Both the position numbers and the translations under genes were made by a program. Positions 22,965 through 40,118 of a stretch of 64,000 bases of DNA are shown in pieces (within the stretch, counting starts at the first letter, position 1; every line of letters begins with the position of its first letter). The stretch is from positions 1,716,501 through 1,780,500 of the forward strand of contig CP002098.1 in assembly GCA_000145985.1 (NCBI GenBank), written 5' to 3'. Below the pieces are notes generated by a model. It saw nothing but the letters and a program-made list of their open reading frames with translations. It was not told where the DNA came from and did not search any database. This DNA is from Ignisphaera aggregans DSM 17230. GTDB taxonomy: Archaea > Thermoproteota > Thermoprotei_A > Sulfolobales > Ignisphaeraceae.

Positions 22965-23813
22965 ATTCCACTGCTACGTGATATAGCTAGAGAGATTCTT
23001 GGTGATAGCTATGCTTCTATTATTTGGAAGAGGATAGAGATTATAGGTGATATAGCTGTTATTAGAAAGCCTTTTGGTATTGATATTGATATTCTTAGGA
23101 GACTAGGTATAGAGATGCTAAATCGTTTGAAGTATGTAAAGAGTGTTTGGCTTGCTGTAACCCCTGTGGAGGGTGATTATAGAACTAGAGAGTATATTCA
23201 TTTAGCTGGTGAGTATAGGAGTGAAACTGTGTATAGGGAGCATGGATGTAGTTTTCTTTTAGATATAACTAAGGTCTATATATCTCCTGTTCTTAGCTAT
23301 GACCATATGAGGATAGCTAAGCTAGTTATAGAGGGTGAGAAGATATTGAATATGTTTGCAGGTTTTGGAGGGTATAGTATTGTTGTATCAAGATATGCAA
23401 AACCTTCATATACACTATCTATTGATATAAATCCTTATGCTGTTAAGTATATGAGGATTAATATAGAGCTTAATAGAGTTGAAGCTATAAATGATGTTAT
23501 TGAGGGTGATGCTCTAACAATTGCAGATGGACTTAGATGTTGTTTTGATAGAATATTAATGCCCCTGCCAGAGCTTGTCTATAGAGCCATAGATAAATCA
23601 ATTGATTTAGTGAAAAATAATGGTTTTATACATCCCCATATATTTATCAATGCAAATAATAGAAGAGAAGCATTTGAAAAAGCTTCTAAAACACTTTTAG
23701 AATATATAGAGAGATATAGAGTTATTGGAAGAGTGATGGGGGGTCATGTAATAAGAAGTATAGCTCCTAGAAAATACCATGTCACTATAGATATACAGAT
23801 TATAAAGAACTAA
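22965..23813 (+). CDS. Trm5/Taw2-family tRNA methyltransferase (position 37 purine)
   Basis: This class I SAM methyltransferase modifies G37 of tRNA (m1G) or its wyosine derivatives. It has ILNMFAGFGGYSI (SAM loop), LSIDINPYAVKYM and the catalytic-type MPLPELVYRA. The first ATG (23115) would remove the N-terminal domain, but 50 more in-frame codons upstream read IIGDIAVIRKPFG, which matches the family's N-terminal domain. An in-frame TAA at 22950 limits the frame. AAGGTGA at 22951-22957 lies seven bases before ATT 22965, the best-spaced start. A one-base error near ATG 22960 is the alternative. Confidence 0.75.
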   Translation: MPLLRDIAREILGDSYASIIWKRIEIIGDIAVIRKPFGIDIDILRRLGIEMLNRLKYVKSVWLAVTPVEGDYRTREYIHLAGEYRSETVYREHGCSFLLDITKVYISPVLSYDHMRIAKLVIEGEKILNMFAGFGGYSIVVSRYAKPSYTLSIDINPYAVKYMRINIELNRVEAINDVIEGDALTIADGLRCCFDRILMPLPELVYRAIDKSIDLVKNNGFIHPHIFINANNRREAFEKASKTLLEYIERYRVIGRVMGGHVIRSIAPRKYHVTIDIQIIKN

Positions 23814-32621: not shown

Positions 32622-33044
32622 ATGGATAGGGATAGAATTGCAAGGCTTTTGGAAGAGATTAGGGGGTCTCTCAAAGTGGTTGAGGAGATCGCCTCGTATG
32701 ATCTGAACAAGTTTTTAGCTGATGTTAGAAATAGATATACATTACGTCTCAGTATAGTGGAGATTACTGAAGCAGCTACATCAATAGGATTGCACATACT
32801 TCGTGAATACTTCAATGAAGGTGCTGAAGGATATATCAATGTGTTTAGAGCGTTATTGGGGCACGGGGTGCTGTCAAGTGATGTTGGTGAGGGGATGATT
32901 AGATTGGTTAGGCTGAGGAATCTTATTATACATAGGTACTGGGAAGTTGATGATATAAGGATGTATAGGGAGGTCAAGGAGGAAGGTATTAAATTGATAA
33001 AGAGGTTTATTGAGGAGGTTGAAAGGTATGTCTCTAGAGCTTGA
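32622..33044 (+). CDS. HEPN toxin HepT (DUF86-like)
   Basis: This 140-residue helical HEPN protein has the RNase motif RNLIIHRY (Rx4HxY) near residues 107-114. In HepT/MntA systems this toxin cleaves RNA and is silenced when the antitoxin AMPylates the Tyr of this motif. The next gene, a minimal nucleotidyltransferase, overlaps its end by 17 bases and is the cognate antitoxin. The length and motif are complete, so it should be active. A second, inverted module follows. Confidence 0.85.
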   Translation: MDRDRIARLLEEIRGSLKVVEEIASYDLNKFLADVRNRYTLRLSIVEITEAATSIGLHILREYFNEGAEGYINVFRALLGHGVLSSDVGEGMIRLVRLRNLIIHRYWEVDDIRMYREVKEEGIKLIKRFIEEVERYVSRA

Positions 33045-33453
33045 AGAGAGAGAACGCTTCAGATTCTTCAGACTGAGCCCTCGGGAGAAAGAGAAGCTCG
33101 TAGAGAAGCTTAGAGACGAGCTCGGCAAGCGCAGAGAAGTTGTGTTGGCCGTAGTCTTCGGATCCTTCTTGAAGGACTATCCATTCAGGGATATAGATGT
33201 AGCTATATACGCTGTGCCTCTGGAGGACTCCTTGGACTATAAGCTAAGGCTTGAAGATGAGCTTGAGAAGGTGATTGGCTACCCCATTGATATTGCAGTA
33301 CTCAACGAAGCTCCTCCATGGTTTGTGAAGAAGGTGCTAGAGGAGGGGAGACCAATAGTTGAGAAGCAGCCATTGCTGTTAGAGAAGCTATATCTGAAGG
33401 CAGTAGACGAAGAGCAAGTATTTAGTAAGAGGATGGTCCAAGGAGACCAGTAG
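33028..33453 (+). CDS. MntA-like nucleotidyltransferase antitoxin
   Basis: This minimal nucleotidyltransferase has VVFGSFLKDYPFRDIDVAIY, giving the GSx8DxD active site. MntA proteins AMPylate the partner HepT. I start it at ATG 33028, because GAGGAGGT at 33012-33019 lies eight bases ahead; an upstream TTG at 33010 is rejected. The start lies within the hepT coding end, so translation is coupled. The C-terminal tail after residue ~115 is charged and not conserved in the second copy. Confidence 0.83.
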   Translation: MSLELEERERFRFFRLSPREKEKLVEKLRDELGKRREVVLAVVFGSFLKDYPFRDIDVAIYAVPLEDSLDYKLRLEDELEKVIGYPIDIAVLNEAPPWFVKKVLEEGRPIVEKQPLLLEKLYLKAVDEEQVFSKRMVQGDQ

Positions 33454-33515
33454 AGTATTTAGAGTATATGTCTTGTATACTTTGACTCCTGCCTCACCTC
33501 CACATATCTTCCATC

Positions 33516-33896
33516 CTATTTATCTTCACTCATTATGATCAGTTCATCTAGGGTTTGTATGAGCATTGCTTCATAGAGTCCCGACTCCTCTATTATGGGT
33601 AGACCTTTGGTTAACACCTTGAGTCTAAACCTTGGTGATAGGAATTGTAGAGGTGCTACATCTATAGGAATATCAAGCTTCTCCTCAAGTCTCATCCCAA
33701 TCTCTAGAACTCTATCAAGGTCTTGTGGATCCTCAAGATATATCGCAATATCTATATCTCTAAAGCTCTCCGCCTCAATGAAGCTGCCGAAGAGTATTGC
33801 TAGTCTGATACCCTCGGCTTGGAGGACTTCCCTAAGCTTTTCTATAACCTTTCTCTTCTCCTCTTGATCCATCCTATAGTATCTGAATTTATACAT
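33516..33896 (-). CDS. MntA-like nucleotidyltransferase antitoxin, second module
   Basis: The active-site segment LAILFGSFIEAESFRDIDIA has the same GSx8DxD spacing as the other module's antitoxin. The rest is similar in layout (EEKLDIPIDVAPL, KGLPIIEE) but clearly diverged. The start overlaps the end of the upstream hepT by eight bases, as expected for a coupled pair. The two modules are convergent, with 62 bases between their stop codons. Confidence 0.82.
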   Translation of the reverse strand: MYKFRYYRMDQEEKRKVIEKLREVLQAEGIRLAILFGSFIEAESFRDIDIAIYLEDPQDLDRVLEIGMRLEEKLDIPIDVAPLQFLSPRFRLKVLTKGLPIIEESGLYEAMLIQTLDELIIMSEDK

Positions 33897-34320
33897 TGCC
33901 TAGAAGCCTCTCCAACCCCTCAATGAAGCTGTACACAGCTTTGAAACCCCTCTTAATACTGTTATAGATCTTCTCATCATCTATAACCCAGTACCTATGA
34001 ACTAAGAGGTTCCTGAGCCTCAAAAGCTTTATAAGCTCATCGCATTCATCAATAGTCAGCAGACCTGCATCTCTTAGAATCGTTAAGGCGTGGATAGGGG
34101 TCTCAGGCGCTCTATTATATACTCTCTTAGCTAAGTGTATAGCTAGGGCCATCAGAGCTTCAGCTAGCGTCACTAAGAGGTATCTAACAGCATATCTCTC
34201 AACACTGCTAAGCTCTTCAAAAGGTTTGCTAGAAGTATAGCTAAGGATTTCAGTTATAGTTGAGTTGATATCTGCTATGAGCTTACCCACATACTCTTTA
34301 TCAATGTCCCTCAAACCCAT
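33889..34320 (-). CDS. HEPN toxin HepT, second module
   Basis: This HEPN protein of 143 residues has LLRLRNLLVHRYWVIDD, matching the Rx4HxY motif and the following acidic pair of the first HepT (LRLRNLIIHRYWEVDD, from 32622). The N-terminal half (SVERYAVRYLLVTLAEALMA) is the usual helical hairpin. It precedes its antitoxin on the minus strand. The protein is diverged enough from the first module that the pairs are probably insulated from each other, but this is inference. Confidence 0.84.
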   Translation of the reverse strand: MGLRDIDKEYVGKLIADINSTITEILSYTSSKPFEELSSVERYAVRYLLVTLAEALMALAIHLAKRVYNRAPETPIHALTILRDAGLLTIDECDELIKLLRLRNLLVHRYWVIDDEKIYNSIKRGFKAVYSFIEGLERLLGNV

Positions 34321-34776: not shown

Positions 34777-37700
34777 TTAGTTGACAATCAATATTTCATA
34801 CCATATTGTTCCATATTCATGGATAAGATGTATTGTTCTATATCTATCTGATGGTGTAACTGGAAGAGCTTTTGTCTTAAAACCTATGTTGTTGAGAGCC
34901 CAAACATTTATATCTTCCTGCATTTTTACTGTAATCTCTATGTCTAGACCTTCGACTAGTGTTGGTGGATATCCCCATCTACCATAATTAGTTATTTTTC
35001 CTTCGAACCGTGGTATTGTTTCAAGCCCCGGTGTAAAGGTTACAATAGCTCTCTGCGTATCATAGTCATAGAGTTTTTCATTTGTATTTGCTGTAACTCC
35101 ATAGGCTATCACAATTATTTTTCTTGCATTCTCAAAGCTATCTCCATCTACAACATGTAGTGCTACTGTACCCCATCCATCTAGTAGTGTATTGCCAACC
35201 CTAATCTTAATTAATCCAAAATCAAACTCTCTGTTACCTATAAACCCTGTTATGACTATACTTCTAGATGTATTGACTATAAAGACACCTCTATCGGGTA
35301 TCGAAACATCCCAGATGATCTCTCCTGTATCAGATCTATATACATTGTTCACACCAACTATATCTGATTTTTGTGTTTGAATTGATGCTTCTTGTGGTTT
35401 AGGTGAATGGTCTGTAACCATAGCTACTCCATTCATTAGACTTTGTATGGGGTTAAGCCCAGCAAAACGTCCATCTGGTAAGTTCCATGATGATACCTTC
35501 ATCTTCGATATCAAGTCTATTTCATCCTCTTTTGATAGATATCCCAAAACAATGTTCTTGGATGGAGCTATATCTCCTCTTACAAACAACATATAGGCTG
35601 TTATCAATGAGGCCATCTTTGTTGGGTGCTGATCTATATCAAAGAAACCTCTTATACGCTTTGAATCCCAGTCTCTATTGTCTGACCCATAGCTAAAGAA
35701 TATGATGGCATCCCAATCCTGTAGAGCTGCATATGACAATAGTATTATAGCTGTTTCACCATCAAATAGATTTGGTGCTGGGTGGTTATATTCAGAGACT
35801 GTGAATGGTTTCCCATAAACACGTTTTAATGCGAGCCACGGTATGGTACTTCCAATGGGATTGTTAACCATAGGTGTGTTATATACATACCAGTTTACTG
35901 GATCCCATGATGCCCCAGGAAACTGTGGATGTTGCCAATATGCATGGGCGTCAACTACATCGAGCATCGAGAGTATGTTTGGAGTTCCACATCCAACTAT
36001 AGTTCCTATTATAAGTGCCTTGACCTTGAGCTCCTCTTTCAAGAATCTATACATCTCCATATAATAGCTATACTCGAGATTCCACAGAAATTCTATCCAG
36101 TCACGTCTAGCACTTAAGGTTCTAGCTCCATATTCATCCAGTGTAAATATCTTTATATTTCCAGCCTCTAGTGATTCTCCATCTCTAAGACCAAACCCAT
36201 TAAAAATCTTCATAGAGAATCCAGTAAAGTAATACACATTTAGATTTGAGCCAAGTCCAGAGATATCTAGTCTAGCATTATCATCTGCTGAACTTGTAGT
36301 CAGATATAGATCATACTTCTTCCACTCTCTACCAATATTAATGGTTACAATCTGGGATAGAGCGTTCCAAGGTTCGTGAGCCTGTCTAATACATACAGTT
36401 ATACTGGTTTCCTTATCTGCTTTAGCCCAAAACGAAATATAGTATGTTTCACCCTCTCTAACTCTGATCCCAGGATAATTGAATTGGATATGCCATGGCT
36501 CACCAGTTTGAAGAACTCTTACAACAAGACTTCTACCGCTAACCCCTGCCGGTGTTTCATTTGAAAAACTCCACCTGGCTTTAGCAGGAGAATGCATTTC
36601 TAGGATCCATCCATATATGTTTTGAAATCCTTCAAGTTCTAAACCTGTTGGAGGTCCTTGTGAAAAATCTCCATTTCTAAGTACTTCATCTCCATATACA
36701 GCTCCTGTGCCTCCCCATGCATTCAATAGGTTATCTGTAGAATTATACTTCTGCTTGAGATATGCATTCCATTTCTCTTGTAAAACATTTTTAAATACTT
36801 GTGGCATTCTATCTATTACACCATCAAGCCATGAATGGATAAGCCCATTTTCATTTATAATCTCTATAAATGCTATGGCCGGGTCCTCAGCATATGTAAG
36901 ACCTGTATATGGATTTCTATGTAGTAGTAGTTTCCTTGCATACTCTTTCTGTAGATCTAATACAGGTTCGTAGAAATACCCCAACACATGCTGATCCTTC
37001 CATTCCATCATATCTATCTCTCTAGGTAGTCCATCCACTGATGAAAATTTCCTTGATACTAAGAGATTAAGATCTATGTATATACCACTCTCCTTAAGTT
37101 TATATATAAAGTAATCCAATCTATCAAGAGCCTCTTTATTTATGTTTCTTGTTCCTGGAGGAGAAAATATATTGAAATTGAGCCATGGAGCCTCTAGATG
37201 ATGAAATCTCACTAGATTTACACCAAATTTAGCTAACCGTGCAGCAATTCTATCAGCTTGCTCCTTTGTGGGAAACGCTGCTCCACCAGCTATATTAACC
37301 CCTAAGAACCTAATTCTCTTACCACCAACATATAGATGGCCATCTGAACCCACATAAACATATCCATATTTTCCAGCAGGTTTATCAAGATATCTAGAAA
37401 GATCTATTTCAGAGCTTGTTGAGTCATCCCATGGAAGATAAAATTGAAAAAGCCTCGATGGAGGAGTCTGTGTTGGTGTAGTAGCATATTGGGGTGTTAA
37501 TGTAGTAGTCATTGTCATAACCTGAGTTACTGTAGATGTTAATGTAGTTGGTGTTATAAATGTTATAGGTGTTGCAACAGATGTTGTAGTAGTTTTTGTT
37601 AATGTCTCTGTATAGATATGTGTAGATGTTAATGTATATGTATATATTGATATAGATGTTATAGTTGTTGTATACCTTATCGTAGATGTTACTGTTACGG

Positions 37701-37794
37701 TCGTTGTATGTGGACTCCAAAAATATGGTAGTATTATGCTGAGAATAATTGATGCAACTATTATGGATATAACAACTATTTTCTCATATCTAAT
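34777..37794 (-). CDS. Cell-surface clan GH-A glycoside hydrolase (cellulase/beta-galactosidase-like) with carbohydrate-binding module
   Basis: The catalytic barrel begins IRFLGVNIAGGAAFP, with acid/base Glu in EIINENGLIH and nucleophile Glu in FTVSEYNHPAPN, both clan GH-A hallmarks. A CBM4/9-like domain (GETYYISFWAKADKETSITV) is inserted in the middle. The first ATG (37518) misses 92 in-frame codons that encode a membrane anchor (IVVISIIVASIILSIILPYF) and a Thr-rich linker. Only ATT 37794, after GGTGATC, or ATG 37787 with one extra A in an A-run, would include them. It faces the outside and probably feeds the transporter that follows. Confidence 0.75.
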   Translation of the reverse strand: MRYEKIVVISIIVASIILSIILPYFWSPHTTTVTVTSTIRYTTTITSISIYTYTLTSTHIYTETLTKTTTTSVATPITFITPTTLTSTVTQVMTMTTTLTPQYATTPTQTPPSRLFQFYLPWDDSTSSEIDLSRYLDKPAGKYGYVYVGSDGHLYVGGKRIRFLGVNIAGGAAFPTKEQADRIAARLAKFGVNLVRFHHLEAPWLNFNIFSPPGTRNINKEALDRLDYFIYKLKESGIYIDLNLLVSRKFSSVDGLPREIDMMEWKDQHVLGYFYEPVLDLQKEYARKLLLHRNPYTGLTYAEDPAIAFIEIINENGLIHSWLDGVIDRMPQVFKNVLQEKWNAYLKQKYNSTDNLLNAWGGTGAVYGDEVLRNGDFSQGPPTGLELEGFQNIYGWILEMHSPAKARWSFSNETPAGVSGRSLVVRVLQTGEPWHIQFNYPGIRVREGETYYISFWAKADKETSITVCIRQAHEPWNALSQIVTINIGREWKKYDLYLTTSSADDNARLDISGLGSNLNVYYFTGFSMKIFNGFGLRDGESLEAGNIKIFTLDEYGARTLSARRDWIEFLWNLEYSYYMEMYRFLKEELKVKALIIGTIVGCGTPNILSMLDVVDAHAYWQHPQFPGASWDPVNWYVYNTPMVNNPIGSTIPWLALKRVYGKPFTVSEYNHPAPNLFDGETAIILLSYAALQDWDAIIFFSYGSDNRDWDSKRIRGFFDIDQHPTKMASLITAYMLFVRGDIAPSKNIVLGYLSKEDEIDLISKMKVSSWNLPDGRFAGLNPIQSLMNGVAMVTDHSPKPQEASIQTQKSDIVGVNNVYRSDTGEIIWDVSIPDRGVFIVNTSRSIVITGFIGNREFDFGLIKIRVGNTLLDGWGTVALHVVDGDSFENARKIIVIAYGVTANTNEKLYDYDTQRAIVTFTPGLETIPRFEGKITNYGRWGYPPTLVEGLDIEITVKMQEDINVWALNNIGFKTKALPVTPSDRYRTIHLIHEYGTIWYEILIVN

Positions 37795-38075
37795 CTTGGA
37801 TCACCTAATAAACTTTATTTCTATCTAATATTTAAGTATTTAGAGAGCATGGTAATTATTAGGTTTGGATAGATATTCTTTATAATTCTATTATAGTATT
37901 TACAAGTTTTCAGGATGCTAAGACCTTTAACAGAACTTCATAATATATAGAGTCTAAGTAATACCTCTGAGATAAATGACTATACCTAGTATCAAAACAT
38001 TTGTTGAGCATATCTCTGTTCATTTAACTTAGGAACAAAAATATAGGATGGAGTTGATAAAAAAGTTTATTGAGA

Positions 38076-40118
38076 TTACTTCTTCTTTGGTATAAAGTAT
38101 CCTATTACGAATCCTACTATTAGTAGAACTACCGCTAGAACTACTGTTATAGTCCAGTCAGTTACTGTTACAGTTGATGTTGTTGTAACAGTTGATGTTG
38201 TAGCCATAGTCACTGTTCTTTCAACCGTAGTAGTTACTGTTACCGTAGTTGGGGATGGTATAGGTGTTGGAGTTGGAGATGGAGTGGGTGTTGGCGTAGG
38301 TGTTGGGGATGGGGTGGGTGTGGGTGCACCCACAGGTCTTAGGTTAAGCAATACTAGGAGTCCGCCGTGCTGCCATTGTCCATTCCAGATTATTGGTACT
38401 CCATATGGATTGTTTTCATTTGGCCATCCAGTCCAGTATTTCTCTGAGGCTAGGAACCAGTAGCCGTTGTACCATAGTGGTAGTGCTGGCATCTCCTCTA
38501 GTAGTATCTTCTGAATATCTCTCATTACCTGCTTGATTTGATCTTTGTGTAGTTCTGGATGTAGATTACCTAGCTTCTGTATGAGATCTCTAAGCTGTGG
38601 ATTGTTGTATCTACCTAGATTGCCTACCCATATACCGGGTGGCCATCTTCCATAGGCCCAGTACAGTAGAGTGTATGGCGATGGTGCTGCAAAGCTTCCA
38701 AAGTTATTGATAGCAGCATCATATTCACCAGAGTCTATCAATTGGGCATAGGCTCCAAAGTCTGGGAACTGTGCTTCTGCATAGATACCAACTTCTCTTA
38801 GATTGTTGGCTATTATAATGATGGAGAACATCCAGTCAGTCCATCCATATGGAACTATGATGCTTATTCTAAGAGGTTTGCCGTCAGGCATCTCTCTCCA
38901 TCCATCACCATTAACATCTTTATACCCTGCTTCATCCAATAACCTCTTAGCTATCTCAGGATTATAGGTATAACCATATTGACTTATGAGATCCTCAGCT
39001 AGATACTCCTTCCAATATGGTAATAAGCCTACAGGATTAGATTTTACTACTACACCTCCTTCAAATGCGCCAGATAGTATTTGATCAACATTTATAGCGA
39101 AGTATAGAGCCTTTCTGAAGTTGGGATCGTTGAACGGTGGTTTCTCTGTATTGACAAATAGGAATGCTACATTTGCAGATAGATAGTATGGAAAGTCTCT
39201 ATAGTATGCTACAGCAAGTCCCTTCTTAACCATATCTGGACCTCCAGGAATATAGAAGCAGCTCCAGTCTAGCTCTCCTGAACCTAGCATGTTAGCAGCT
39301 ACCTGGTTGCTATAGACAACGACACCCTTTATATATTTAGGTGCTGGTAGTGATCCTGTAAATGGATAACTCTTAACATTCTTACCCCACCAATTATCTA
39401 CTCTCTCCATGATGAAGTAGTCCTGGCCTATCTCTATAAGTCTATACATACCACTACCAACAATATTCCTAAAGTCTGCATTCTCTGCCACAGCAGGCCA
39501 TTTGGATGTATCTGTAAGCTCTGATCCATAACTATCGACAAGAGACTTCAATACGTGTTCAGGTAGTATTGGTGCTGAGTAGAACTGGTATAGTAGATCT
39601 CCATAGTTTGGATTTGTGGAATTGAGATGTATTCTAACGGTCTTATCATCAACAACCTCTACACTAGTAATATAGTTAGCCATACCAGCCCAAGCAACAG
39701 TTGTAACTTTCTTTGGCACATACTCAAATGTGAACTTGACATCACTAGCGGTTACAGGCTTACCATCCCACCATGTTGCTTCAGGTCTGATCTTTATCTC
39801 AACTGTATAGTCGTCGATCCATTTAGGTAGATCTGCAGCAAGCCATGGGACAAACCTCTGACCCTCAGGCTTAATGGGTATCCAGATATATAGAGGCTCA
39901 TATATTAGTCCAACAATACCTGAATTTGAACCACCATAGTTAAGAACATTCCAGATGTTTGGAGGCATTGACCAATAAGCTCCACCAATTATAAGCGTTT
40001 GCTCCCTAGGATATTTCTGTGCATGGACTACTGGAGGTATACCAACACTTAATATCAACATTGATACTATGGAGACTAGTGCTAATAGATTTACAAAGGT
40101 CTTTCTAGTTGAAACCAT
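38076..40118 (-). CDS. Surface-anchored ABC transporter solute-binding protein (family 5)
   Basis: This 680-residue extracytoplasmic binding protein of the dipeptide/oligosaccharide class has an N-terminal signal (about 10-34, ending VVHAQ) and a family 5 body (ATWWDGKPVTASDVKFTFEY, FRKALYFAINVDQIL). A Pro/Thr/Ser linker of PTPTPSPTPT repeats follows, then a C-terminal membrane helix (VVLAVVLLIVGFVIGYFIP) with KKK. C-terminal anchors are common in archaeal sugar-binding proteins of this class. Permease and ATPase genes lie just upstream, and a glycosidase gene downstream, pointing to oligosaccharide rather than peptide uptake. It appears to have its own promoter. Confidence 0.9.
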   Translation of the reverse strand: MVSTRKTFVNLLALVSIVSMLILSVGIPPVVHAQKYPREQTLIIGGAYWSMPPNIWNVLNYGGSNSGIVGLIYEPLYIWIPIKPEGQRFVPWLAADLPKWIDDYTVEIKIRPEATWWDGKPVTASDVKFTFEYVPKKVTTVAWAGMANYITSVEVVDDKTVRIHLNSTNPNYGDLLYQFYSAPILPEHVLKSLVDSYGSELTDTSKWPAVAENADFRNIVGSGMYRLIEIGQDYFIMERVDNWWGKNVKSYPFTGSLPAPKYIKGVVVYSNQVAANMLGSGELDWSCFYIPGGPDMVKKGLAVAYYRDFPYYLSANVAFLFVNTEKPPFNDPNFRKALYFAINVDQILSGAFEGGVVVKSNPVGLLPYWKEYLAEDLISQYGYTYNPEIAKRLLDEAGYKDVNGDGWREMPDGKPLRISIIVPYGWTDWMFSIIIIANNLREVGIYAEAQFPDFGAYAQLIDSGEYDAAINNFGSFAAPSPYTLLYWAYGRWPPGIWVGNLGRYNNPQLRDLIQKLGNLHPELHKDQIKQVMRDIQKILLEEMPALPLWYNGYWFLASEKYWTGWPNENNPYGVPIIWNGQWQHGGLLVLLNLRPVGAPTPTPSPTPTPTPTPSPTPTPIPSPTTVTVTTTVERTVTMATTSTVTTTSTVTVTDWTITVVLAVVLLIVGFVIGYFIPKKK

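Follow-up and report, generated by a model that had tools for sequence, protein, structure and literature searches.

The infC gene of Escherichia coli, which encodes initiation factor IF3, is naturally translated from an AUU start codon. Common gene callers such as Prodigal consider ATG, GTG and TTG only. In infC, as at the Ignisphaera aggregans glycosidase gene described here, AUU follows a Shine–Dalgarno motif; infC is, however, bacterial and autoregulatory, and nothing at the glycosidase hints at initiation-factor regulation. For archaea, the accessible part of a review (PMC7531240) names AUG, GUG and UUG only, and describes Shine–Dalgarno-led initiation in a related crenarchaeon of the kind proposed for the glycosidase. 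According to work cited in the available text of a study of aIF1 (PMC6237735), in Sulfolobus this factor promotes discrimination against non-canonical starts. Switches of prokaryotic start codons from AUG to CUG and from AUG to AUU numbered two and one, respectively, out of 61,358 in the portion seen of PMC5622118. In PMC3261824, which curates the purine genes of archaea, purF starts are reported to be miscalled, and the accessible sections make no mention of unusual purQ starts. A literature search by title and abstract opening, to which subscription journals were mostly outside, found no report of AUU, AUA, AUC, ACG or CUG starts in archaea. A crenarchaeal parallel is the fucosidase gene fucA1 of Saccharolobus solfataricus, likewise a glycosidase whose full frame is hidden from gene callers (PMC8211752, as far as available); in contrast to fucA1, the glycosidase has no slippery heptamer and lies in one open frame, which needs only a start.

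The window, i.e. the whole stretch of 64,000 bases analysed, corresponds to bases 1716501–1780500 of the closed 1,875,953-base I. aggregans genome. The glycosidase frame on the minus strand opens past TGA 37803–37801 and was read uninterrupted to the stop at 34777. Features are listed in window positions.

37831–37836, minus strand: CTTAAA, possible TATA box (weak, by pattern), 42 bases before ATT
37799–37806, minus strand: AGGTGATC, 8-base Shine–Dalgarno match (GGTGATC at 37805–37799, plus 37806)
37792–37794, minus strand: ATT, proposed start codon by frame and spacing, 6 bases after GGTGA
37785–37787, minus strand: ATG, out of frame (MRK-stop by frame reading), 13 bases after GGTGA
37723–37779, minus strand: hydrophobic anchor, residues 6–24 (IVVISIIVASIILSIILPY), mean hydropathy 2.77 over 19 residues
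37516–37518, minus strand: first in-frame canonical ATG by frame reading, within the Thr-rich linker
37453–37722, minus strand: Thr-rich linker by composition, residues 25–114, 42% Thr
36850–36852, minus strand: E315 of an invariant N-E pair (alignment of homologues), which we take from GH clan A to be the likely acid/base
36262–36687, minus strand: CBM_4_9 carbohydrate-binding domain (Pfam), inside the catalytic region
35791–35793, minus strand: E668 in a conserved SEYNHP stretch (alignment of homologues), presumably the nucleophile
34777–37794, minus strand: whole reading frame from ATT, 1005 amino acids plus stop

The segment 37800–37519 is open and continuous with the catalytic frame, and contains no ATG, GTG or TTG before ATG 37518, so that conserved protein sequence is reached from the upstream in-frame stop without a canonical start. 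An earlier note on this DNA had described an uninterrupted start-less frame with an anchor and a Thr-rich linker, and this was borne out, with 94 sense codons preceding the first canonical start. More than 60 such codons were found in only 3 of 338 long frames (464 kb sample), one of the three being an antisense shadow frame; in a larger sample (720 frames, 864 kb), 14 frames had at least 60 start-less codons and, among those listed, most were shadow-like. L028 18613 and similar long antisense frames were discarded as genes and treated as shadow frames. The N-terminus of 92 codons given in the note is exact when counted from ATT 37794 to ATG 37518, and GGTGATC is present ahead of the ATT as it claimed. 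Its interval of 37518–37805 covers the coding stretch, but the outer end (37801–37805) consists of the stop and part of the Shine–Dalgarno motif and is noncoding.

The protein read from ATT has a hydrophobic segment close to its N-terminus that is, from its length, sufficient for a predicted membrane span. An AlphaFold model of the 1005-residue protein, poor overall (mean pLDDT 47.4), has a helix at residues 4–24. When the protein is read from ATG 37518, its peak 19-residue hydropathy is 1.65, too low for an anchor, versus 2.77 in the extension; the last 22 of the 90 linker residues fall from this ATG onward. Five homologous proteins were found, namely one paralogue in I. aggregans (51% identity in matched parts) and four proteins in three other Ignisphaera genomes, so that homologues were present in 3 of the 10 congeners searched, one of which had two. 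All five have an N-terminal hydrophobic segment and four also have the Thr-rich linker. In these four (the paralogue, L008, L009 and L010) the hydrophobic peak is 2.34–3.22 and precedes a linker of 90–97 residues with 29–42% Thr, which is followed, as in the glycosidase, by an LFxFxxPW stretch. The fifth, L012, has a signal-like segment without a long linker. Homologues found more widely amounted to 19 loci, mostly bacterial. The hidden N-terminus is considered real because the paralogue and the congener homologues have this anchor and linker at the corresponding position; judged by these alignments, the upstream extension is part of the protein, and the proposal of the earlier note gains comparative support. 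The 10 congeners searched contained no close orthologue of the glycosidase, which leaves its start codon without direct comparison. The composition and hydropathy of the extension predict a membrane-anchored, outward-facing enzyme located at the cell surface.

A Pfam search of the glycosidase reached no catalytic glycosidase family. A profile match to GH5 endo-beta-mannanases (PDB 3pz9 and others) was obtained with a best E of 8.5e-08 over profile positions 168–325, about 160 positions. The invariant N-E pair is common to these enzymes and the glycosidase; the I. aggregans enzyme differs from them in that only part of it matches and CBM_4_9 is inserted. By alignment, CBM_4_9 is not present in the paralogue or the congener homologues. 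From these matches we infer a GH5/mannanase-like catalytic region and, with it, the substrate.

The spacing from GGTGA to ATG in sampled frames of the genome was maximal at 4–7 bases (7, 12, 5 and 4 cases). ATT 37794 is in frame at spacing 6, within this peak, and follows an 8-base match whose 3′ end (AGGTGATC) is 4 bases from the ATT. Both strands of 864 kb contained 13 copies of AGGTGATC, i.e. approximately 7.5e-6 per base and strand, and the chance expectation for a copy at the proper spacing (4–7) was approximately 3e-5 per start site. Among in-frame non-canonical pre-start codons of the 720 frames, the motif match at spacing 6 was longest for ATT 37794, at 8 bases. AGGTGATC is assumed to pair with the anti-Shine–Dalgarno sequence. 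Since the 16S 3′ end with the anti-Shine–Dalgarno was not found in the I. aggregans genome sequence by pattern search or with Rfam RF01959, the motif is identified by its enrichment ahead of starts and by the general form of the anti-Shine–Dalgarno sequence. Genome-wide, GGTGATN(4-6)ATT was not enriched (80 versus 84 in the reversed control), and in the 720 frames a 6-base motif accompanied near-cognate codons scarcely more often than other codons; near-cognate starts must therefore be rare in the genome. A TATA box was barely enriched ahead of other Shine–Dalgarno genes, and CTTAAA was not used as evidence.

Translation of the glycosidase probably begins at the near-cognate ATT 37794, which would imply use of AUU in vivo. 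The 30S subunit would be positioned by the strong motif AGGTGATC, and AUU would be recognized in the P site by the initiator tRNA. The product, M-RYEKIVVISIIVASIILSIILPYFW, would comprise an N-terminal signal anchor, the 90-residue Thr-rich linker and the GH5/mannanase-like region with its inserted CBM_4_9. The nascent anchor would target the product to the membrane and leave the linker and catalytic part on the outer side.

The earlier note had offered two starts, ATT 37794 and, with a one-base break, ATG 37787; the former is better supported by spacing, frame and the purQ parallels described below, and the latter less so. A start at ATG 37787 would require that the reference or the strain breaks frame by one base in the short A-run behind it; the protein would then begin MRKIVV. 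This reading is unlikely, although an ATG does exist there and loses its frame immediately. It lies 13 bases from GGTGA, a spacing that is unusual but not impossible: of the 34 start-associated copies of AGGTGAT or GAGGTGA, two 7-base motifs that may overlap, only 3 were at 11 bases or more. The A-run consists of only four A, and the reference, produced from 454 and Illumina data at 94.5x with a stated error of less than 1 in 100,000, was Illumina-polished (PMC3035270, accessible text). In favour of a break, the same source reports 79 pseudogenes among genes called with Prodigal and GenePRIMP, and the genome has other genes in which a motif-supported start is soon followed by an apparent one-base break:

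L019 near 7286, minus strand: MFS-like transporter
L026 near 4177, minus strand: exported protein
L103 near 7673, minus strand: PLP enzyme resembling threonine synthase
L103 12149, plus strand: probable phosphoglycerate dehydrogenase

These breaks are reference errors or real disruptions, and are the best argument for ATG 37787. Less probable still is a programmed −1 frameshift from the same ATG, as published for the crenarchaeal glycosidase fucA1, where the site is a heptamer A-AAA-AAT with a stem-loop (PMC8211752, part seen); we regard it as very improbable here, where ATG 37787 is followed just by AGAAAATAG, which does not have the form X-XXY-YYZ, and where the shift would have to occur no more than 3 codons from the start.

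The same protein would result if the true codon at 37794 were ATG or another canonical codon and ATT a substitution error or clone mutation. ATT is one base from ATG and its spacing is ideal, but substitution errors are rare in a finished genome of 94.5x (PMC3035270, as available) and near-cognate purQ starts recur across many independent assemblies, which makes this explanation improbable. Loss of the original start, with an unanchored, cytoplasmic enzyme now made from ATG 37518, is rated slightly lower again and has little to recommend it beyond that ATG being the first canonical start and the choice of a standard caller: it falls within the Thr-rich linker, its best motif is only 4 bases at the wrong spacing, the upstream frame retains anchor and linker without a stop, and the segment is retained in homologues.

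The purQ gene of I. aggregans (L088:2598; G000:C1:222598; PF13507) has CTG 6 bases after GAGGTGA, with an in-frame TGA directly ahead of the CTG and 24 codons without a canonical start. The order of Ignisphaera, which we take to include Ignicoccus and Sulfolobaceae as well, was surveyed for purQ in 147 genomes, 58 of which gave a match. The start regions of all 58 were read (L147–L218) and the start columns tabulated by hand. Among the loci read, L161/L201, L192/L223 and L195/L226 were each counted once as the same genomic place, and L258 was left out as the motif was not found. The codons in the start column were TTG (18), GTG (10), ATG (10), CTG (5), ACG (5), ATC (4), ATA (3), ATT (1) and doubtful CTG (2; L178 and L202). 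Canonical codons thus accounted for 38 of 58 and CTG, ATA, ATC, ATT or ACG for 20, the two ambiguous loci included, nearly all after the same motif. Whereas switches to CUG or AUU are almost nil in the accessible data of PMC5622118, near-cognates occupy 18 to 20 of 58 purQ columns in this one archaeal order.

At 34 of the 58 loci an in-frame TGA within xGTGA lies 7–11 codons ahead of the conserved K-FPG stretch. The codon at spacing 6 was ATG or differed from it by one mismatch in 30 of these 34, compared with 3, 3, 9 and 17 of 34 in columns −2, −1, +1 and +2; the four exceptions had TTG two codons further downstream. At 11 of the 58 loci the interval from the stop to the conserved stretch is free of canonical codons, so that a near-cognate is strictly forced (CTG 2, ATA 2, ATT 1, ATC 2, ACG 4), and at 7 further loci a canonical codon stands 2–6 codons downstream of the near-cognate. 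As a control, 200 genomes of the phylum were searched, of which 136 gave a match; 118 of these lay outside the order. From the 118, 42 loci were read, comprising the 22 best-scoring and 20 chosen by hand, which is not a random sample; ATG, GTG or TTG was present within 12 codons before the motif in 41 of 41 readable loci, and the remaining one of the 42 lacked the motif.

An error in a single assembly cannot explain the purQ pattern of near-cognates at a fixed distance from the motif across the order. Fusion by frameshift from purS is an unlikely cause, because it would not confine the column to near-cognates of ATG. Sequence reading showed that purS and purQ overlap in the order, with the purS stop just inside purQ, and purQ may be translationally coupled to purS. 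The analogy is imperfect for this reason, as the glycosidase is separated from its upstream neighbour by about 270 bases. On the purQ counts, near-cognate starts in this lineage seem genuine and not the product of reference errors. Initiation in the order may well be permissive, with AUA, AUU, AUC, ACG and CUG serving as evolutionarily stable starts of conserved genes such as purQ and the glycosidase as an uncoupled example.

Should near-cognate starts prove normal in the order, annotation would systematically lack N-termini, along with membrane anchors and catalytic residues. For purQ, where the conserved KFPGTNCD stretch often precedes the next canonical codon, the annotated enzyme would then be truncated. 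Start-codon stringency, as set by aIF1, initiator tRNA and Shine–Dalgarno strength, would become testable in natural archaeal genes, sister species offering ATG, GTG, ATA, CTG or ACG at one purQ column.

Further I. aggregans genes with a conserved N-terminus upstream of any canonical start were found in the same survey. A molybdopterin oxidoreductase (PF00384; L024:12168, G000:C1:1057168) has ATA at the position where ATG stands in L129 and L131; an ATT one codon earlier is an alternative. A Trm5/TYW2-like methyltransferase (PF02475; window 22965–23810, plus strand) has ATT in the position occupied by TTG in L118, the spacing from GGTGA being 7 bases in each. For this gene, an out-of-frame ATG just upstream makes a frame break a serious alternative. 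The gene sits just downstream of an apparent tRNA gene.

The upstream neighbour of the glycosidase (38076–40118, minus strand) encodes an SBP_bac_5 binding protein that itself possesses a Thr/Pro-rich linker, as well as a C-terminal hydrophobic segment; past this gene lie ABC transporter genes, named from sequence. Their proximity is consistent with uptake of breakdown products. On the other side, at window 32622–34320, two adjacent, convergent HepT-like/nucleotidyltransferase pairs were observed, which are probable toxin–antitoxin modules.
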